A stretch of DNA of 43,989 bases from the NCBI GenBank assembly GCA_018666135.1, contig JABJAN010000098.1:1-43989 (forward strand). The letters run 5' to 3'. The stretch comes from Alphaproteobacteria bacterium (lineage in GTDB: Bacteria > Pseudomonadota > Alphaproteobacteria > Puniceispirillales > Puniceispirillaceae). The first letter of the stretch is position 1. Every line of letters begins with the position of its first letter. Made by a program: the position numbers and the translations under genes. The notes under the pieces are model-generated. The model made no database searches. It was not told the DNA's origin and saw nothing but the letters and a program-made list of their open reading frames with translations. Below, one piece after another: positions 7,042 through 43,691 of the stretch.

Positions 7042-7545
7042 TCATCGCAAGATAACGAATTCTTCTCCAGACCAAACGCCCATATTACCATGACTATCTT
7101 CAGTTACCATATCCATTAATTGATAATATACTGGACGGCTTATTTTAGCAGTTAACCCATCATTCAGGCGTAAATAAGGCGTGGATGAATTATTCTGAGC
7201 TTTCTGGTTATCAGCATTCTTGAAAAAAATACTATGGTGCCCGCCTAGCTCGAATTTTCTATCCACATTATCCCTCATTACTAATCTGGAATGCATCTTA
7301 TCTGTTGGTGATAGAACCGTCAGATTAGTTATTATAAATGGCGCATCTTCAACAGTTACTTCTCCTTTTTCTATTGGCGTAGTCAGCCAGTATCTTCCTT
7401 TTTCATCCTGAGATAAAATAGACGCAAAAAGTTTAACCATCGCCTGGCGCTTGATTTCTCCACCCTGATGAAACCACTTCCCATCTGAAGCGATATGAAT
7501 ATCAAATTTTTCATATTTTTGATGCATAGTGATATTTTCGCTCAT
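7042..7545 (-). CDS. DUF1285 family protein
   Basis: Cytosolic 167-residue protein of the DUF1285 family, function unknown. Recognisable stretches are FDIHIASDGKWFHQGGEIKR at the N-terminus, then GRYWLTTPIEKGEVTVEDAP and the C-terminal ISRPVYYQLMDM. Its place immediately upstream of the NUDIX, DUF6111 and CCA-enzyme genes is the usual alphaproteobacterial arrangement. The Met at codon 7 (MHQKYEK) is an alternative start. It diverges from the broken reading frame at 7651, so 7546-7650 must hold promoters for both directions. Confidence 0.88.
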   Translation of the reverse strand: MSENITMHQKYEKFDIHIASDGKWFHQGGEIKRQAMVKLFASILSQDEKGRYWLTTPIEKGEVTVEDAPFIITNLTVLSPTDKMHSRLVMRDNVDRKFELGGHHSIFFKNADNQKAQNNSSTPYLRLNDGLTAKISRPVYYQLMDMVTEDSHGNMGVWSGEEFVILR

Positions 7546-7650
7546 TCTAATTATATGTGAGCCATCTTCTATCTATAAGAAGGCAAAAATCAATCATTTG
7601 ATAACTATTTTATGCAACACTATTATGATTGAAAATAGCTGTGTAATTAA

Positions 7651-8451
7651 ATGAACAAAATGATATCAAATTCTTTTATCACAAGAAAGGGGGAACTCCG
7701 TTATGGAAATGAAAATATTCCAGTTACTGCCTCTATTATTTTATCTCGAAAAGGCAAAATACTTTTTCTCCTTATTCGCAAACACGCAACCGTTTCGTCA
7801 TTGTTAGGCTTAATAGGCAATATTAGGGCTTATAACGGGTTCATTGAAGTCTGCTATACCCAAAATGGAAAAGAAACCCAAATCCCGCCAGCACCAGCTG
7901 ATGTGGTCAGTCTTACAATTGGCAGATTAATACTATCAAAAATTGAATCTAAACGGCAAAGGCTCTCACAATCACATATATATTCGAGCAGCGACGCTAT
8001 CAGGCATGATTCATCCCTTCCAGATATTTTTCATCAGCTGATTTCTATGCATTCGCCTAGTGATTTAACTTCTAATGCTCTTTTGAAACTGCAAAATTTA
8101 GACCTAAGTATTGCAGCTTTTTATTTCAGGGATCAGACAAATAAATTTTGTCTGGGGAAAACGCCAAAAACTTATTTTTGACCTGACAAGTCGCTTTTTT
8201 ATAATGACACTGTTGATGCAACAAATTTTGGCACAAATGCCTCTGCAATTATAACTATCTTAGAAACAGCAATGGCGTGCCGTTCCCCAATATTACAAAA
8301 AGGGATAATGAAAACTGACCATACAGAAGAAAGTACATATTTTCCTTTTGCAAGAATCGCAATTCCGATGTCTTCAATAGCCGAGCAACCCTTTAATTAC
8401 CGAGTGCTAACCATAGCTATTAGACAAACAGACAATGCCGTTATGATTTAA
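7651..8451 (+). pseudogene. Unrecognised reading frame interrupted by one in-frame TGA
   Basis: An ATG-started frame runs 176 codons to a TGA at 8179-8181 and then continues open in the same frame for 89 more codons to a TAA at 8449-8451. The joined product would be about 266 residues. I do not recognise the family. The second half (for example YFPFARIAIPMSS) vaguely recalls the end of alphaproteobacterial PAS-like domains (PF07310 type), but too weakly to name. A single TGA in a long AT-rich frame looks like a recent nonsense change, a TGG-to-TGA sequence error, or readthrough. If real and terminating, the product is the 176-residue N-terminal part. Confidence 0.6.
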
Positions 8452-8530
8452 AAAATAGAATTTTTTTTTGATTCATTTTCGTAATTAATTACAATTATTA
8501 AGAGTTTAATAATAATTATATTCTATTTTT
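8451..8530. promoter_or_regulatory. Inverted-repeat region upstream of the arsR-family gene
   Basis: Just before the ArsR gene, an 11-bp inverted repeat (aaaaatagaat at 8451-8461 and attctattttt at 8520-8530) brackets a perfect 12-bp palindrome gtaattaattac (8481-8492). ArsR proteins are dimers that bind such palindromes, so this is a plausible autoregulatory operator and promoter. The sequence is A/T only apart from the palindrome ends, so chance palindromes are a concern. Confidence 0.4.
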
Positions 8531-8561
8531 AAGTTAAAACTGAGGTTATAAAGGAAAAAAC

Positions 8562-8891
8562 ATGTCCCGACCGCTAGAAAGAAACAAACATAATTCTCAG
8601 ATGACAACTGTTCTGAAGGCCATTAGTAATATAAAACGGTTACAAATCTTAAATGAGCTCGCGGATGGAAAAGAAAAGTCAGTTTCCGAGTTGGAATCAG
8701 TGGTTCCTGAGTTAAGTCAATCTGCGTTGTCTCAGCATCTTGGAAGATTAAGACGTGCCAATATTGTAAAAACACGACGCGAAAGCCAGTCTATATTCTA
8801 TTCAGTTGAGAATGATGAAGTGATAAAAATCCTACGGTTTTTGTCAAAAATTTATTCAAATGACTTAGTGATTAAAAAAACGAAGCACTAA
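8562..8891 (+). CDS. ArsR-family winged-helix repressor without cysteines
   Basis: Small (109 residues) DNA-binding protein of the ArsR/SmtB fold. The core shows LKAISNIKRLQILNELADG, the helix-turn-helix SELSQSALSQHLGRLRRANI-like region (LSQSALSQHLGRLRRANIV) and the wing RRESQSIFYSV. It contains no cysteine, so neither the metal-binding ELCVCDL motif nor the two-Cys persulfide switch of BigR/SqrR is present and the signal is unknown. A good ribosome site (aaagga) precedes the ATG. It is 114 bp upstream of the TauE-type exporter, and regulation of that exporter is a reasonable guess. Confidence 0.9.
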   Translation: MSRPLERNKHNSQMTTVLKAISNIKRLQILNELADGKEKSVSELESVVPELSQSALSQHLGRLRRANIVKTRRESQSIFYSVENDEVIKILRFLSKIYSNDLVIKKTKH

Positions 8892-9005
8892 AAAATTTAC
8901 AAATCTTCTGATTTAGAAATTTGAACTTTCATTTCGTTCTGCTTTAAGGTACTTCTTGCAAGACATCCTAATGGTCATTTGAAGTGACATAGTGAAGCTA
9001 ACGTA

Positions 9006-9920
9006 ATGTACATTTATTTCCCTATTGCAGAAATTTCTCTAAATATATTTATTGTGATTGGGCTTGGCGGGTTTATAGGGTTTCTATCTGGATTATTTGG
9101 TGTTGGTGGCGGTTTTTTAATGACCCCTCTATTAATTTTTCTTGGAATTCCTGCGCCTGTTGCTGTTGCTACTGAAGCAAATCAAATTGTTGCCTCTTCT
9201 GTTTCTGGTGTAATTGCTCATTGGCGTCGAAAAAATGTCGATTTTAAAATGGGTGCCGTGTTATTATTTGGCGGTATCGTTGGCTCATCACTTGGCGTGT
9301 TGCTTTTTGCCTTACTCGAAAAAATTGGGCAGCTCGACCTAGTAATCAAACTCTCTTATGTATTTTTTCTTAGCGCGATTGGAATTCTGATGCTTTGGGA
9401 GAGTGTGCGCACCTATATTCGAACACGCAGCTCTGAGTTTTATCGCAGAAAATTACACAAACATAATTGGTTGCACGGGCTGCCATTTAAAATGCGTTTT
9501 AGACGCTCAAAACTCTACATAAGCGCCCTTGTTCCATTCTTAATTGCTGCCTTTGTAGGTGTTCTCTCAGCTATTATGGGTGTTGGCGGTGGATTTATCA
9601 TGGTACCAGCCATGATTTACTTGCTTGGAATGCCTACATCTGTGGTCATAGGAACATCCTTATTTCAAATTATTTTTGTTACAGCAAATGTTACATTATT
9701 GCAGTCCGTTCAAACTCAGACTGTTGATTTTTTACTTGCTGGGACACTTTTATTCGGTGCCGTTATTGGCGCTCAAATTGGAACTCGTTTTGGCGGGATG
9801 CTCAGAGGAGAGCAATTGCGCGGAATGCTTGCATTGATTGTATTACTGGTGAGCATCAAAATCGGCTATGATCTTATCGTGATGCCATCAGATCTATTTT
9901 CAACAGAGATTTTAAAATGA
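9006..9920 (+). CDS. TauE/SafE family sulfite/organosulfonate-type exporter
   Basis: Polytopic inner-membrane protein (304 residues, about eight helices) of the TauE/SafE family, whose studied members export sulfite, sulfoacetate or related anions. The internal duplication is obvious: SGLFGVGGGFLMTPLLIFLGIP near residue 30 and AIMGVGGGFIMVPAMIYLLGMP near residue 195. It overlaps the next gene (TIGR02186) by 4 bp (ATGA), a pairing common in alphaproteobacteria, and follows an ArsR regulator. The substrate cannot be read from sequence; sulfite is favoured by family and context. Confidence 0.9.
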   Translation: MYIYFPIAEISLNIFIVIGLGGFIGFLSGLFGVGGGFLMTPLLIFLGIPAPVAVATEANQIVASSVSGVIAHWRRKNVDFKMGAVLLFGGIVGSSLGVLLFALLEKIGQLDLVIKLSYVFFLSAIGILMLWESVRTYIRTRSSEFYRRKLHKHNWLHGLPFKMRFRRSKLYISALVPFLIAAFVGVLSAIMGVGGGFIMVPAMIYLLGMPTSVVIGTSLFQIIFVTANVTLLQSVQTQTVDFLLAGTLLFGAVIGAQIGTRFGGMLRGEQLRGMLALIVLLVSIKIGYDLIVMPSDLFSTEILK

Positions 9921-34859: not shown

Positions 34860-35750
34860 ATGACCACAGATATTCTAACAGCACTTTCACATTTGATTTA
34901 TAATTCAAGTTTTGTTTTGCCATCATCTGCACAATCAGGTGTTAGCAAGCCTGTCACTGCAGGTGATCGTTTCGAAGATTTTTGCAAAGATTGGCTCTCA
35001 GAGTTAAAACCTGGTGATGTTTCAAATAGAGAATCACATTACCATGCCGCTTTTTGTTATAGAGGCTCGGCGAACAATCCGCCAGATGCAATGTATAGAG
35101 GCGGCAATGATGGTGACGCCTTTGAATTTAAGAAACATGAAAATAAAAATGCATCTTCTGCGCCAAATTTAGAACTAAATTCTTCTTCTCCAAAAGATAT
35201 GTTGCTGGCATCTAATCCAAGATTAACCAAAGAATGCATTGAGTGTGAAAAATGGGATAAAAGAAGTTTTTATTACATCATTGGTAATGTTCCTCCAAGA
35301 AGTGAGAGAGTATCCAGTTTATGGGTAGTCGATGGAAGACTTCTTGCAGCAGACTCCTCTTTCTACCTTCAATGGTTTAACGGTTTAAAGGCAAAAGTAG
35401 ACGAGTATTTGCAAGAAATTGGGCATGGCAAAACAGAAACCAAAGAAATAGGAAGAATTTCAAATATCGACCCTTTAAACAGATCTACTCTAAGAGTTAG
35501 ATCAATGTGGGAGTTAGAACACCCAGCGAGTGTTTTCAAAACTGTGGACGGCGTTCAATTTCCTGAAAAAGGAAATTCTGTTCTACATGCATTAATCTTA
35601 CAATCTCAATGGGATAATTATTCTATAAAGGGAAAAGAAGCTCTTTTGGATTTTGCTAAGAATAAAAAAATTTCAATCACGAATCTAGAAATTGCTAGTC
35701 CCTGCGGGGAAAAAAATCTAAGCGTTAAGTTAATTCGGTTTGAGTCATAA
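34860..35750 (+). CDS. Type II restriction endonuclease, NgoPII family (predicted GGCC)
   Basis: 296-residue nuclease of the NgoPII type. A PD-(D/E)xK centre is visible as D76 (NNPPDAMYRGG) and E89-x-K91 (GDAFEFKK), followed by LELNSSSPKDMLL and the CIECEKWDKRSFYYIIG stretch, which resemble NgoPII-family sequences as I recall them. It is 88 bp upstream of a HaeIII/NgoPII-like C5 methyltransferase on the same strand, which supports GGCC specificity. No controller protein gene is seen. No strong ribosome site precedes the ATG. Confidence 0.83.
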   Translation: MTTDILTALSHLIYNSSFVLPSSAQSGVSKPVTAGDRFEDFCKDWLSELKPGDVSNRESHYHAAFCYRGSANNPPDAMYRGGNDGDAFEFKKHENKNASSAPNLELNSSSPKDMLLASNPRLTKECIECEKWDKRSFYYIIGNVPPRSERVSSLWVVDGRLLAADSSFYLQWFNGLKAKVDEYLQEIGHGKTETKEIGRISNIDPLNRSTLRVRSMWELEHPASVFKTVDGVQFPEKGNSVLHALILQSQWDNYSIKGKEALLDFAKNKKISITNLEIASPCGEKNLSVKLIRFES

Positions 35751-35838
35751 GTGAGCTTTGACAAATCATTAGATGATTGACATAAATAACCACTCAGTCA
35801 AAATAGAACGTAGACAGAACAAAAATGGATATTAATTA

Positions 35839-36828
35839 ATGCCTGCTCTAAAAATTGCTACTTTCTTCTCTGGTGCAGGTGGTTTAGATTTTGGGTTTAA
35901 AAAAGCTGGCTTTAAATTAATCTGGGCGAATGAATATGATAAGGAGATTTGGGATACTTTTGAGTATAATCACCCTAAAACTCATTTAGACAAAAGAAGT
36001 ATTGTGAATATTCCATCAGATGATGTTCCTGATTGTGATGGCATCATCGGCGGTCCCCCCTGCCAAAGTTGGAGTGAAGCAGGTGCATTGAGAGGTATCG
36101 AGGATGAGCGTGGTCAGCTATTTTATGAATTTATTCGTATTTTAAGAGACAAAAAACCAAAATTTTTTTTAGCTGAGAATGTATCTGGAATGTTGGCTGC
36201 AAGGCATCGTCCCGCGCTTGATAATATTATCAGGCTATTTGAAGAATCTGGGTATAAGGTGAGCTTTAAATTGCTGAATGCAGCTGACTATGGCGTTCCT
36301 CAAGATAGAAAAAGAGTAATTTTCATTGGGTTCAGGCAAGACTTAAATATCAATTACCAATTTCCAGAAGCTCTCAAAAATAAAGTCACTTTGCGAGATG
36401 CCATTTGGGATTTGAGAGAAAATGTAGTCTCTGCTGCTAATAAAAATTATACCTCTGGGGTAAAATGTAAATTCTTGAATCATGAATATATGACGGGTGG
36501 TTTTTCCTCCATTTATATGTCAAGAAACAGAGTGCGAACTTGGGATGAGCAGTCATTTACAATACAGGCAGGCGGACGGCATGCACCGTTACATCCACAA
36601 GCACCTAAGATGCAGCATATAGAACAGAATAAAAAACTATTTGTTGCTGGCAAGGAAAACCTTTATCGAAGATTATCTGTGCGTGAATGTGCTAGAATTC
36701 AAACTTTTCCTGATAATTTTGAGTTTATCTATTCTAAAATAGCAACGGGATATAAAATGATTGGAAATGCGGTCCCAGTTGAGTTTGCAAAAATTTTAGG
36801 CACTTCAATCCGCAGACATTTAAAATAG
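35839..36828 (+). CDS. DNA cytosine-C5 methyltransferase, HaeIII/NgoPII-like (predicted GGCC)
   Basis: 329-residue m5C methylase protecting the host from the adjacent nuclease. Motifs in order: [27 protein letters not shown] with nucleophile C75, [21 protein letters not shown], target region [34 protein letters not shown] and [13 protein letters not shown]. The SWSEAG after PCQ and the target-region block followed by [14 protein letters not shown] are like M.HaeIII, so GGCC is predicted. Confidence 0.93.
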
Positions 36829-38758: not shown

Positions 38759-39529
38759 TTAGTCTGCTGTCCAACCGCCATCAATTAATAACGAAGTGCC
38801 TGTTATCATTGCACTTGCATCTGATGCAAGAAATACCACTGCACCCATAATATCTTCAATTTCGGCAACACGTCCTAGTTTTATTTTGCTTTCAATCCAT
38901 TTTTTTCTCTCTGGATTAGCAAAGGTTGACTGACTAAGTGCGGTTCTAACAAATGTTGGGCAAATTGTATTAACTCTTATTTGATGAGGCCCCCATTCAA
39001 TTGCCTGAGATTTTGTATATCCTTCTGCTGCATGTTTAGTAGCGCAATATACAGCTCTATCTATTCCACCAACAACAGCCATTTGAGACGAAATTGTCAT
39101 TAATGAGCCAGATTTTCCTGTTTCAATAAGTCGCTTGGCAACTGCCTGATTTAAAAAATAACCTGCCTTAATATTAAGCTGAGACACAGCATCGAAATCC
39201 TCGATACTTGTGTCTAAACTTGCACCATGGCGGGCCATACCAGCGCTATTCACCAAAATATCAAATGGGTCTTGTTTATTTATCATGTCTCTTGTTGCGC
39301 TGATATCTGTTACATCCAACACACAAGCAGTAGCATCCCATCCCTGTTCTCTCATCTGTGATTGTAAATCATGCAAACTATCCGCCGAGCGGACTACCAA
39401 TGTAACAGATGCTCCTGCTTCACATAATGCGACTGCGCATCCAACACCAATGCCAGACGATGCGCCAGCGACTAATGCCCTCTTGCCAGCTAAATTAAAG
39501 GAAGGTGTGCGTGGAAGTGATGTGCTCAT
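38759..39529 (-). CDS. Short-chain dehydrogenase/reductase (SDR)
   Basis: Classical SDR of 256 residues: TGxxxGxG variant ALVAGASSGIGVGCAVALCE, NSAGMARHG (NNAG-type), the catalytic Ser in TISSQMAV, YCATKHA (YxxxK) and the C-terminal ASAMITGTSLLIDGGW. AGAGG-like agagg ribosome site 8 nt before the ATG. It is 14 bp downstream of the HpsN/HisD-family gene on the same strand, so probably co-transcribed, and may oxidise a related polyol or sulfonate. The substrate is not readable. Confidence 0.9.
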   Translation of the reverse strand: MSTSLPRTPSFNLAGKRALVAGASSGIGVGCAVALCEAGASVTLVVRSADSLHDLQSQMREQGWDATACVLDVTDISATRDMINKQDPFDILVNSAGMARHGASLDTSIEDFDAVSQLNIKAGYFLNQAVAKRLIETGKSGSLMTISSQMAVVGGIDRAVYCATKHAAEGYTKSQAIEWGPHQIRVNTICPTFVRTALSQSTFANPERKKWIESKIKLGRVAEIEDIMGAVVFLASDASAMITGTSLLIDGGWTAD

Positions 39530-39543
39530 TTTTTTAGCCTCTA

Positions 39544-40854
39544 TTATTCCGCAGCGTCGCCATATCCAACATTCTTACCGCCATAGCGTCTTACCCGAAT
39601 ATTACATTGCTCTGCATGACCAATAAATCCCTCTAAAATGCATAAACGCGACCCGTAGGCACCAATTTCAGCTGCAGCTTCATCTGTCGTAATTTTTTGA
39701 TAGGAATGTGTTTTCAAAAACTTGCCAACCCATAAGCCACCTGTATATCTTCCTGCCTTCTTTGTTGGCAGGGTGTGGTTGGTGCCAATCACCTTATCAC
39801 CATTAGCAACATTAGTGCGTGGGCCAAGAAATAGAGCCCCATAACACGTCATTTTTTCAAGGAACCAATCATCTCTATCTGTCATTACCTGAACATGCTC
39901 TGATGCAATTTCATCTGCCATCTGCAGCATTTCATCATAGGTATCACACAAAATCACCTCACCATAATCTTGCCAGCTAACAGATGCTGTATCAGCAGTT
40001 GGCAGAATACCTAAAAGCCTATCAATCTCACTCAAGGTTTCTTGTGCCAGCTTTTCAGAAATAGTTAATAATACTGCTGGTGAATTATATCCATGTTCTG
40101 CTTGACCCAATAAATCGGTGGCACATAATTCTGCATCTACTGTTTCATCTGCAATCACCATTGTTTCAGTTGGTCCTGCAAATAAATCTATACCTACTTT
40201 GCCAAAAAGTTGTCTTTTTGCTTCAGCAACAAATGCGTTTCCTGGTCCAACTAGCATATGAACTGGCTCAATCGTCTCAGTCCCCAATGCCATAGCGCCA
40301 ATACCTTGCATACCTCCAAGCACATATATCTCATCTGCGCCTCCCATATGCATTGCAGCGATAACAGCGGGGTTTGGTTTACCTTGAAATGGCGGTGTAG
40401 ATGCAACAATACGAGGCACACCAGCGACCGAAGCTGTAAGTACAGACATATGAGCAGAGGCAACCATAGGAAACTTACCTGCTGGAACATAACAGCCTAC
40501 TGACTGCACAGGAATATTCTTATGTCCTAATATCACCCCTGGTAATGTTTCAACTTCAATATCTTGCATAGATGCACGTTGCGCCTTGGCAAAGTTTCTT
40601 ACCTGTTCTTGAGCAAATTTTATATCCTCAATATCCCGTGGGGACACCTCTGCAATCAGAGCATCTATTTCACTTTGTGATAAACGGTATGAGGGCGGCG
40701 AATAATTATCAAATTTCTCTGCAAGTTCACGAACAGCTATATCTCCCCTAGCCTCTATATCTGAGAGAGTTGTTTCAACTATCTGGCGCACTTTTGCATC
40801 ATCTTCTGAACGCTCTAATGCCGATTTACCTTCTTTTAAATACCGAATTGCCAT
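39544..40854 (-). CDS. Histidinol-dehydrogenase-family enzyme, sulfopropanediol 3-dehydrogenase (HpsN)-like
   Basis: 436-residue Zn/NAD dehydrogenase of the HisD fold. The Zn and catalytic positions appear kept: Q and H in [15 protein letters not shown] in [12 protein letters not shown], the D in [14 protein letters not shown] and the late His in [18 protein letters not shown]. The HpsN-like features are [27 protein letters not shown] and [18 protein letters not shown], which differ from true HisD. Together with the SDR partner this suggests oxidation of 2,3-dihydroxypropane-1-sulfonate to sulfolactate. Specificity is inferred, and a histidinol role is less likely. Confidence 0.82.
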
Positions 40855-40912: not shown

Positions 40913-41362
40913 CTATAAAGTGCCATTTATTACATAACTCAATATGCGTGTTATCTGCTCTGGTGTATCAACTACTGCTAGGGCTGCCCCATCCACTTCC
41001 TTGAGTGCATGCTGATGGTCAGCTCCATGCATTATAATAAGAGGTTTGCCAAGCGCAGCTGCGAACCCCGCATCAAAAGCAGCATTCCATTGCTTGTATT
41101 TTTCGCCAAACCGAACAACCACAATATCAGCTTGCTCAAGGTAGGTACGAGTTCTAATTGCATTGAGTTTTGCGCCTTTGTGATCATGCCAAAATTTGGC
41201 TGTTTCTGCACCCATGATTTCTACCCCGCAATCATCAGATGCGCCATGGTCTGTCACAGGAGAAGTAAACGAAACTGGCAACCCAGCGGCAACGGCTTGT
41301 TGTTCAATAATATCTCGCCAATCTGTGTGAATTTCTCCAGAAAGATAAACTGTCCAATGCAT
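40913..41362 (-). CDS. ytoQ: YtoQ family protein (nucleoside deoxyribosyltransferase-like fold)
   Basis: 149-residue cytosolic protein. MHWTVYLSGEIHTDWRDII, FTSPVTDHGASDDCGVEIMG and NAAFDAGFAAALGKPLIIMH are characteristic of the YtoQ (TIGR03646) family. The fold resembles nucleoside 2-deoxyribosyltransferases, but the function is unknown. It lies 58 bp upstream of the HpsN-like gene on the same strand and may belong to the same transcript. Confidence 0.87.
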   Translation of the reverse strand: MHWTVYLSGEIHTDWRDIIEQQAVAAGLPVSFTSPVTDHGASDDCGVEIMGAETAKFWHDHKGAKLNAIRTRTYLEQADIVVVRFGEKYKQWNAAFDAGFAAALGKPLIIMHGADHQHALKEVDGAALAVVDTPEQITRILSYVINGTL

Positions 41363-41577
41363 TTATTTACTCCTAATATTTTTTGGTAACGCAGTGTACC
41401 ATAAACTGGCGTTAACACGAGCATAACGAGAGATTAATTTTATGCATTATTGCATATGATGGAACACCAATACATATTTTATGAAAGGCAATAAACCAAC
41501 CCATAATAAAATAATAGTGACAATTTTATTGCCTCATAATAAAGTTACGTCTCAGACAATATGTAAGGATAAGAAAC

Positions 41578-42501
41578 GTGCAAAAATTTCAGATTATTTT
41601 CGCAGGATATGGCCCAGAGCATACCTCATTTTCCAAATCACTTAAGATAATGGGAGATAAAATTGCACATCAATTTTCTGATTTAGTAGATGTACAATAT
41701 GTCTATAACGTGATGGATTTGGGATATAAATCTGAAGATATTTTATGGATGACCGACAAAAATATATTAACCATCACTTATCAGTCTACAAGTTATCTAA
41801 CAGATGACGTTCCTGAGCTTGGTTTTGTAGATTTACCTTTTTTGTTTCGAGATAATGCACACGCACGAAGCGCAATGGACGGCGCACTTGGACATTATTT
41901 AAGCAACCAAATTGAAGATAGAAAGAATTATAAAATTCTTGGTTATTTGGAAAATGGATTTAGACAAATATCAAATTCACTAAGAAAAATTGAACAGCCT
42001 GATGATATGAAAGGCATGAAAATTAGAGTATTGCCAAGTGATATCCACTCCCGCTTCTTCGAGCTTTTAGGGGCAATTCCAATGCGTATGGATCTTACAC
42101 AAGCTATTAATGATATACAGACTAGCGCTCTAGATGCCCAAGAAAATCCCTATACGAACACCACTACCTATGGTGTTCATAAGTTTCATAAATACCATAC
42201 GCTTTCAAATCATTTTTATATTTCACGTGCAATCATGTGTAATAGAACCCAATTTTATGAGTGGCCTGAAGCCTTAAAAAAAGCCATAATCGCAGCCGCA
42301 GGTGACGCAATAAAATGGCAACGTTCTCAAATAGAGATAGATGTAAAAGAAGCTGAAAAATTAATCCTTGAGGCAGGCGGGCAAATACATTCTCTTACAT
42401 CAGAACAAACAAGATTATTTCAAGAAAAAATTACCCCTCTTTATGAACAGGCAAGAGCCCAACTTGGAGATGAGCCGTTTAATCTTCTCTCTAAATCATA
42501 A
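41578..42501 (+). CDS. TRAP-type (DctP-like) solute-binding protein lacking a signal peptide
   Basis: 307-residue DctP/TRAP binding fold: VPELGFVDLPFLFRDNAHAR, ILGYLENGFRQISNS (the usual Gly-Phe-Arg loop), DDMKGMKIRVLPSDIH and AINDIQTSALDAQENP are family hallmarks. The GTG start (41578) follows aagga at 8 nt, and the product begins at the first beta strand. The in-frame upstream sequence back to the stop at 41518-41520 has no start codon and no signal-like segment, so no export signal is encoded. No membrane subunits (DctQ/DctM) are adjacent. Confidence 0.82.
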   Translation: MQKFQIIFAGYGPEHTSFSKSLKIMGDKIAHQFSDLVDVQYVYNVMDLGYKSEDILWMTDKNILTITYQSTSYLTDDVPELGFVDLPFLFRDNAHARSAMDGALGHYLSNQIEDRKNYKILGYLENGFRQISNSLRKIEQPDDMKGMKIRVLPSDIHSRFFELLGAIPMRMDLTQAINDIQTSALDAQENPYTNTTTYGVHKFHKYHTLSNHFYISRAIMCNRTQFYEWPEALKKAIIAAAGDAIKWQRSQIEIDVKEAEKLILEAGGQIHSLTSEQTRLFQEKITPLYEQARAQLGDEPFNLLSKS

Positions 42502-42545: not shown

Positions 42546-43691
42546 TTAAAATGGACAGGATCTAATTATTTGCCTGTCCACATTATGAATATCACGATGC
42601 CCACACATAGCCATGGTATAATCAAGTTCTTTATGAATAATCTGCAATGCGTCTGTTACACCTTGCTTGCCATTAGCGCCTAAACCATACAAAAATGCAC
42701 GTCCAATCATTACCCCCTTGGCACCAAGAGCAATCGCTTTTAGCACATCTTGACCTGAACGAATGCCGCCATCCATCCATACATCTATCTTATCGCCAAC
42801 AGCAGCAGCAACTTCAGGGAGCATCGCAATTGAAGTTTCAGCGCCATCAAGCTGTCTGCCGCCATGATTTGATACAACAAGCGCGTCTGCTCCTATTTTC
42901 TGAGCCTGTTTTGCATCCTCAGGGTCCATTATTCCTTTTAAAATTAGTTTGCCGCCCCACCAATCACGGATACGCGCTATATCATCCCAATCTAGCGCTA
43001 GATCAAATTGGTCACCAACCCATGAAGACAAAGAAGATAAGTCAGACACCCCATCTACATGACCAACAATATTTCCAAAATGATGCCGCCTAGTACCCAT
43101 CATTCCAAGACACCAAGCAGGTTTTGTTGCCATATTAATGATATTTTTTAACGTTAATTTAGGGGGGGTAGATAAGCCATTTTTTATATCTTTATGACGC
43201 TGACCTAATAGCTGGAGATCTAATGTAACAACTAGCGCTGAACATTCAGCTGCCTTTGCACGCTCAACTAGTTTTTTCGAGAATTCATGATCACGCATAA
43301 CATATAGCTGAAACCAAAATGGCGCTGAGCTATGCTTGGCAACATCCTCAATTGAGCAAACAGACATTGTGGATAATGTAAAGGGTATACCAAACTCTGC
43401 TGCTGCCTGAGCTGCTAGAATTTCCCCATCTGCTATTTGCATACCTGTAAGACCTGTTGGGGCAATTGCAACTGGCATGGAAGCAGCTTGTCCTGCCATG
43501 TTTGTCTTTGTAGTTCTGTTTGTCATATCTATTGCGACTCGCTGGCGAAATTTAATCTGCTCCAAATCCGTTTGATTAGCCCGATAAGTTGTTTCTGTCC
43601 ACGAACCACTATCAGCATAATCATAAAACATTTTCGGAACACGCCGTTTTGCCTGCTGCCGCAATTCCTCAATAGTTGTTATTATTGCCAT
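42546..43691 (-). CDS. FMN-dependent alpha-hydroxyacid dehydrogenase (LldD-like)
   Basis: 381-residue TIM-barrel flavoenzyme. Motifs are MPVAIAPTGLTGMQIADGE, FTLSTMSVCSIEDVAKH, FWFQLYVMRDHEF, the LVVTLDLQLLGQRHKDIKNG substrate side, the catalytic-His block ADALVVSNHGGRQLDGAETS, and VWMDGGIRSGQDVLKAIALG. The N-terminus RVPKMFYDYADSGSWTE is typical of L-lactate dehydrogenase (LldD). It is a different paralogue from the enzyme at 22908. Its neighbourhood suggests another 2-hydroxy acid, for example sulfolactate, as a possible substrate (inference). Confidence 0.92.
   Translation of the reverse strand: MAIITTIEELRQQAKRRVPKMFYDYADSGSWTETTYRANQTDLEQIKFRQRVAIDMTNRTTKTNMAGQAASMPVAIAPTGLTGMQIADGEILAAQAAAEFGIPFTLSTMSVCSIEDVAKHSSAPFWFQLYVMRDHEFSKKLVERAKAAECSALVVTLDLQLLGQRHKDIKNGLSTPPKLTLKNIINMATKPAWCLGMMGTRRHHFGNIVGHVDGVSDLSSLSSWVGDQFDLALDWDDIARIRDWWGGKLILKGIMDPEDAKQAQKIGADALVVSNHGGRQLDGAETSIAMLPEVAAAVGDKIDVWMDGGIRSGQDVLKAIALGAKGVMIGRAFLYGLGANGKQGVTDALQIIHKELDYTMAMCGHRDIHNVDRQIIRSCPF

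Follow-up and report, generated by a model that had tools for sequence, protein, structure and literature searches.

A leaderless branch of the DctP family of TRAP binding proteins, probably acting in the cytoplasm

The DNA stretch analyzed here (the window: 43,989 nucleotides, the whole of contig C48 in a 134-contig, 1.77-Mb draft genome of an alphaproteobacterium of the family Puniceispirillaceae) encodes near its end a DctP-family protein without a leader, which we read from sequence comparisons as a protein of the cytoplasm that takes no part in transport, with a probability of roughly 0.8 that covers every such role. Such a protein would stay in the cytoplasm and close on a small intermediate, a carboxylate or else a sulfonate or phosphate; its ligand may belong to sugar-acid or hydroxy-acid catabolism, which would place its role inside catabolic pathways. 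The gene and its upstream boundary are laid out as follows:

41578..42501, forward strand: leaderless DctP-fold protein gene (307 aa, GTG start; from the profile match, the starts of orthologues and the structure model)
41565..41569, forward strand: Shine-Dalgarno-like AAGGA, 8-nt spacer to the GTG at 41578-41580 (read from the sequence)
41518..41520, forward strand: in-frame TGA, boundary of the upstream frame (read from the sequence)

The sequence-only reading had proposed a GTG start with a good ribosome site, no start codon in the upstream frame before a stop, and a product that sets in directly with the mature fold. All three proposals hold up: AAGGA stands 8 nt before the GTG, the 19 codons of open frame between the TGA and the GTG contain no ATG, GTG or TTG, and in the model the first strand is predicted at residues 4-9. 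No export signal was found in frame upstream of 41578. Around the gene, neither a terminator-like site nor an inverted repeat was found, and promoter-like sites were not in excess of those in shuffled sequence. The product matches the DctP profile PF03480 with an E-value of 3e-54 (184.7 bits, cut-off 23.4), this being its sole Pfam domain at E 0.001, with no DNA-binding domain fused to it at that threshold; it also passes NF037995 (TRAP_S1; 134 bits against a cut-off of 50) and stays under the cut-off of TIGR00787 (153.8 versus 175.05 bits). The AlphaFold model, built on a 24-sequence alignment, has a mean pLDDT of 95.2, aligns with solved TRAP receptors from residues 1-5 on and finds its best structural match in an exported TRAP binding protein (Z 38.9, rmsd 1.8 Å over 298 residues, 22% identity). 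In the predicted model, then, the two-lobe Venus-flytrap fold of the TRAP type is complete and the leader alone is missing.

Leaderless homologues in relatives had been named as the thing to look for, and they were found in the genus and in a wider clade with more distant alphaproteobacterial members, from marine and other bacteria, most of the sequences compared being draft genomes or metagenome-assembled genomes. Of 61 genomes, 20 gave a match with an E-value of 1e-20 or lower. Eight of the nine other genomes of the genus carry an orthologue of 80-84% identity that aligns from residue 1; all are leaderless, with 1-15 in-frame codons between stop and start, and in one of them there is a TTG 15 codons upstream, with no stretch resembling a signal. 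Further leaderless groups are represented by a Pseudolabrys metagenome-assembled genome (56% identity), by L039-L041 (29-32%) and by seven genomes that belong to a different family within the order (L014-L020, 28-30%). With a 17-sequence profile at E 1e-60, matches were obtained in 5 of the 385 genomes sampled from the class, namely our own and four of a family termed f106, in which a 24-sequence profile then gave 43 matches, with at least one leaderless copy in 21 of 24 genomes. Across 398 sampled genomes of the phylum, the same 24-sequence profile at E 1e-60 added only four other matches, exported-type proteins with signal peptides scoring at most 230 bits. A viral origin was considered and set aside, the single scan of viral contigs having turned up no relative.

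The lack of a leader was assessed in 50 clade loci scoring above 290 bits and retaining their 5' end, the window itself, duplicates and L156 (cut at a contig edge) being excluded; signal peptides were called by a home-made hydropathy rule, not by SignalP. By this rule 49 of the 50 have no signal peptide. The single flag, in L141, was counted as false, as it calls for an implausible start 40 codons upstream and the near relatives L139 and L122 are unflagged. The in-frame codons above the fold number at most 12 in 29 of these loci and at most 20 in 35; in the 29, the stop lies too close to the fold for a normal-length Sec or Tat signal to fit in frame. The lower-scoring, exported-type rows present the opposite picture, with a signal peptide flagged in 82 of 89 and 12 or fewer upstream codons in none, seven low-scoring rows with at least 300 upstream codons having been kept outside this count (96 if included). 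Of the seven unflagged exported-type rows, those in L061, L045, L060 (two frames) and L064 look by eye like missed leader or lipoprotein signals, the others being extra matches in L087 and L090. Bit scores separate the two sets, with clade members at 304 or more and the nearest exported relatives, L133-L136, at 230 or less. Close homologues with signal peptides, which would have marked the gene as a truncated copy, were sought and none was found among the genomes searched. Frame lengths in eight related genomes with 111 DctP matches served as a control within genomes: the 14 leaderless frames span 302-378 aa from stop to stop and all other complete DctP frames have at least 328 aa (partial matches of 132, 199 and 243 aa were excluded), the ranges overlapping at the top while short frames are leaderless only. 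As a separate observation, an exported-type DctP of Polaromonas sp. P2-4 is split across two frames around 6001-6758 of L082, possibly by a frameshift or as a pseudogene.

The 38 leaderless rows formed one clade both in a quick 126-row tree (SH-aLRT 100) and in a careful 98-row tree (100/100, and 100% of 200 bootstrap trees), each of which came with warnings for several long branches and uneven composition. Before the first tree was built, 18 named loci (near copies, cut or partial rows), third frames per locus and rows with fewer than 180 model positions or less than 70 bits were dropped; for the second, 28 more rows were removed, comprising nine long-branched exported rows, three fusions and 16 second frames of a locus. 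Tree labels denote score classes, and the leader was read independently of them. Among the genus orthologues, dN/dS lay between 0.037 and 0.157 in the 14 pairs, out of 21, that allowed a computation, with many saturated dS values; by this measure the window gene and these orthologues are under purifying selection.

The ligand pocket combines retained and clade-specific features. A typical carboxylate site consists, in 4P47 numbering, of Arg152, Arg173, Asn213 and an aromatic residue at 196, and a sulfonate or phosphate can take the place of the carboxylate, according to PMC11668362. By alignment, the window equivalents are Arg129, Arg150, Asn190 and Leu173. Arg129, Arg150, Asn190 and His212 occur in all 38 clade rows and Glu189 in 36; Arg150, present throughout, is the conserved carboxylate-binding arginine (SiaP Arg147, 4P47 Arg173). 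The aromatic residue at position 173, by comparison, is found in 0/38 leaderless versus 42/85 exported rows. The clade has a residue set of its own: Tyr11 is invariant (38/38, against 0/85 outside rows), as are Asn126, Asn194 and Thr208 (each 38/38 versus 12/85), followed by Asp172 and Tyr73 (each 37/38 versus 15/85) and Ser72 (36/38 versus 16/85), with Lys or Arg at position 51 in 32 of the 38 clade rows. At a constant offset of 27, Arg156, Arg177, Asn217 and His239 of IseP would fall on window residues Arg129, Arg150, Asn190 and His212; by the same offset, positions 126 and 194 would correspond to Tyr153 and Leu221 of IseP, residues that touch or border its ligand site.

Its neighbors in the window are the following genes:

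40913..41362, reverse strand: YtoQ-family gene (PF11071/TIGR03646), divergent neighbor (profiles and synteny)
39544..40854, reverse strand: HpsN-like gene of the histidinol-dehydrogenase superfamily (nearest solved structures are those of sulfopropanediol 3-dehydrogenase, HpsN)
38759..39529, reverse strand: short-chain dehydrogenase (SDR) gene, on the same strand as the HpsN-like gene and 14 bp apart from it
42546..43691, reverse strand: FMN-dependent L-lactate dehydrogenase family gene, convergent, filling the end of the contig after the leaderless gene

The YtoQ-family gene adjoins the leaderless gene in seven further loci of the genus. The HpsN-like product scores 387.2 bits to sulfopropanediol 3-dehydrogenase versus 257.5 bits to the best histidinol dehydrogenase. 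The lactate-dehydrogenase-family gene is variable content within the genus: L031 and L032 have it next to the leaderless gene as the window does, L035 has a piece of 43% identity, and it was not found beside the leaderless gene in L030, L033, L034, L036 and L037. Elsewhere in the window (34860-36828), genes for an NgoPII-type restriction endonuclease and a C5-cytosine methylase make up a restriction-modification pair that was possibly inserted recently: in L030 the genes flanking it are separated by about 200 bp, and the spacing is comparable in other relatives of the genus. The absence of DctQ and DctM partners, which the sequence-only reading had also claimed, was borne out for the whole of contig C48, which stops 1.5 kb past the gene. 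In the genome itself, contigs C75 and C22 each encode DctQ, DctM and a DctP adjoining them; C59 has a partial DctM and C98 begins with a piece of a DctP, both of which are unplaced.

To look beyond the genus, 33 chosen probes were run over 7 kb around 59 clade loci, on contigs that are often short and many of which come from near relatives, some neighbor matches being only 25-40% identical. Genes of the Gfo/Idh/MocA type were found near 29 loci, HIBDH-like genes near 20, Amidohydro_2 near 15, HpsN-like near 14, Ldh_2 near 13, TctA near 10, IlvD near 7, and TAXI together with DctM, represented by one probe, near 3. The nearest characterized relatives of these neighbors are L-arabinonate dehydratase and an ACMSD-like decarboxylase, along with L-threonate, tartronate-semialdehyde type and L-sulfolactate dehydrogenases, the last three each matched under its own NCBIfam cut-off; taken together they point to sugar-acid or hydroxy-acid chemistry, as far as sequence relationships go. 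The neighborhoods differ between subgroups and some copies, e.g. L123 and L172, have none of the probed genes nearby, so that the clade may not share a single reaction. A gene for a conserved 245-aa protein without a Pfam or NCBIfam match and without a convincing PDB match was seen near 15 of the 59 loci, often directly upstream in family f106 (L128:7905-8642, with matches in L127, L129, L130, L175, L178, L179, L181, L182, L183, L185, L186, L188, L192 and L193); in 12 of the 15, 6-31 bp separate the end of its match from the leaderless gene's match downstream.

HpsN-like and SDR genes lie within 7 kb in six of seven loci of a distant leaderless group (group C), so that they adjoin the leaderless gene in two groups sharing less than 30% identity. 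HpsN is present in 16 of 16 genomes with a leaderless copy, our own included, but also in 27 of 45 relatives without one, and it was not found near the remaining leaderless subgroups with the 33 probes over 7 kb. The link is one-way and suggestive only; a specific role in dihydroxypropanesulfonate (DHPS) breakdown was set aside as the main claim, HpsN being common without the gene and not detected near the other subgroups.

How well does a cytoplasmic, non-transport protein stand against other readings? One might suspect an ordinary gene for an exported TRAP binding protein that has lost its 5' end or is decaying, since the PF03480 match begins at profile position 43 and the partners are missing on the contig. 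We consider this scarcely credible and rejected it, given the close leaderless orthologues, a predicted fold complete from residue 4, the low dN/dS and the single clade; orthologues and distant relatives, moreover, begin at the same point. Very improbable, too, is a transport receptor still in service, exported by an unrecognized route or from an unrecognized start codon and feeding one of the unlinked DctQM pairs on C75 and C22, or the partial DctM on C59. In its favor, the site corresponding to SiaP Glu172, described as the QM-facing acidic site in PMC9352664, is Glu, Asp or Gln at position 175 in 37 of 38 leaderless rows (Gln in the window), compared with Glu or Asp in 84 of 85 exported rows. 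The DctQM pairs of C75 and C22, however, have DctPs of their own, and 29 of the 50 loci leave no room for a normal Sec or Tat signal. An uptake receptor is in general probably not what the window protein is, because those clade clusters that do carry a transporter, TctABC or TAXI-DctM, also hold a receptor gene from a different family (TctC or TAXI), the export of which is presumed.

A cytoplasmic ligand sensor, or a sensor subunit reporting an intracellular acid to a separate regulator, is a more serious competitor that we nevertheless regard as unlikely. A DctP domain does occur in a regulator, namely in the PucR-type (HTH_30) protein L050 with its C-terminal DctP domain, and in L051 and L059 DctP stands in frames that extend 374-377 codons upstream of it; these three fusions are unflagged for a signal peptide, and the DctP domain of L050 is apparently used as a cytoplasmic sensor. 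Also in favor of a sensor are the GntR gene near the three group B copies and the ligand clamp that the window protein has kept. Against it, the window protein has a single domain; the fused domains sit elsewhere in the 126-row tree, and GntR, the sole regulator among the 33 probes, lies near only 3 of the 59 loci. The L050 regulator itself (7302-9305) comes from a Lachnospiraceae member, in a cluster that also holds a leader-bearing DctP and a gene resembling DctM by eye. Of the sequence-only reading, which took the protein to be a cytoplasmic binding or sensor protein re-used from the TRAP family, the cytoplasmic re-use stands, at the level of sequence, as the probable explanation, whereas the neighborhoods favor a pathway enzyme or carrier over the guessed sensor.

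Within the cytoplasmic, non-transport reading, catalysis would be the leading intracellular role, at somewhat less than even odds, because the clade has invariant pocket residues of its own and metabolic enzymes are nearby more often than regulators. Carrying or buffering of a ligand is the less likely option, and any other intracellular role is improbable; the retained clamp and fold would also suit a protein that only binds. Tentatively, we put forward a DctP-fold family of cytoplasmic enzymes whose substrate would be a hydroxy- or sugar-acid or else an organosulfonate, for instance one formed during dihydroxypropanesulfonate breakdown, and whose reaction would be, e.g., an isomerization or a dehydration; in such an enzyme the old transport clamp would hold the substrate and the set Tyr11/Lys51/Asn126/Asp172/Asn194 would act on it. 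TRAP receptors are given a periplasmic annotation by default; a cytoplasmic clade that is conserved would mean that 'DctP' labels can hide pathway proteins. With this clade one can test whether a transport receptor has turned into an intracellular binder or enzyme, a case of greater interest should catalysis prove true, and the protein may supply a step missing from the breakdown of hydroxy acids, sugar acids or sulfonates in SAR116 and other Alphaproteobacteria.

With the DctP-type TRAP binding proteins (PF03480; DctPAm 7bbr, SiaP, IseP) the window protein shares sequence family, whole fold and the Arg-Arg-Asn clamp. Unlike them, it lacks an export signal and a DctQM linked to it in the window, and falls into a clade of its own that is without the aromatic residue at 173 and has as its own residues the invariant Tyr11, Asn126, Asn194 and Thr208 and the near-invariant Asp172. 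The L050 regulator is similar in apparently using a DctP domain without export and differs in the fusion to a DNA-binding domain and in its position elsewhere in the tree. Cytosolic single-domain proteins matching profiles of solute-binding proteins have been surveyed before, around 1% of those retrieved being predicted to be cytosolic, and the accessible part of that survey names no DctP branch of the present kind (PMC9602780). Among the matches listed in open-access PMC text there was no description of a leaderless cytoplasmic DctP branch, and by that measure the branch is new, while cytosolic members of solute-binding protein families and enzymes derived from them are already known. Such enzymes include cyclohexadienyl dehydratase (PMC7683729). 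If the enzyme reading is right, the likeness would lie in a binding-protein fold re-used away from transport. Cyclohexadienyl dehydratase belongs to a solute-binding protein family different from DctP, and a catalytic member of the TRAP-receptor family would, to our knowledge, be the first.
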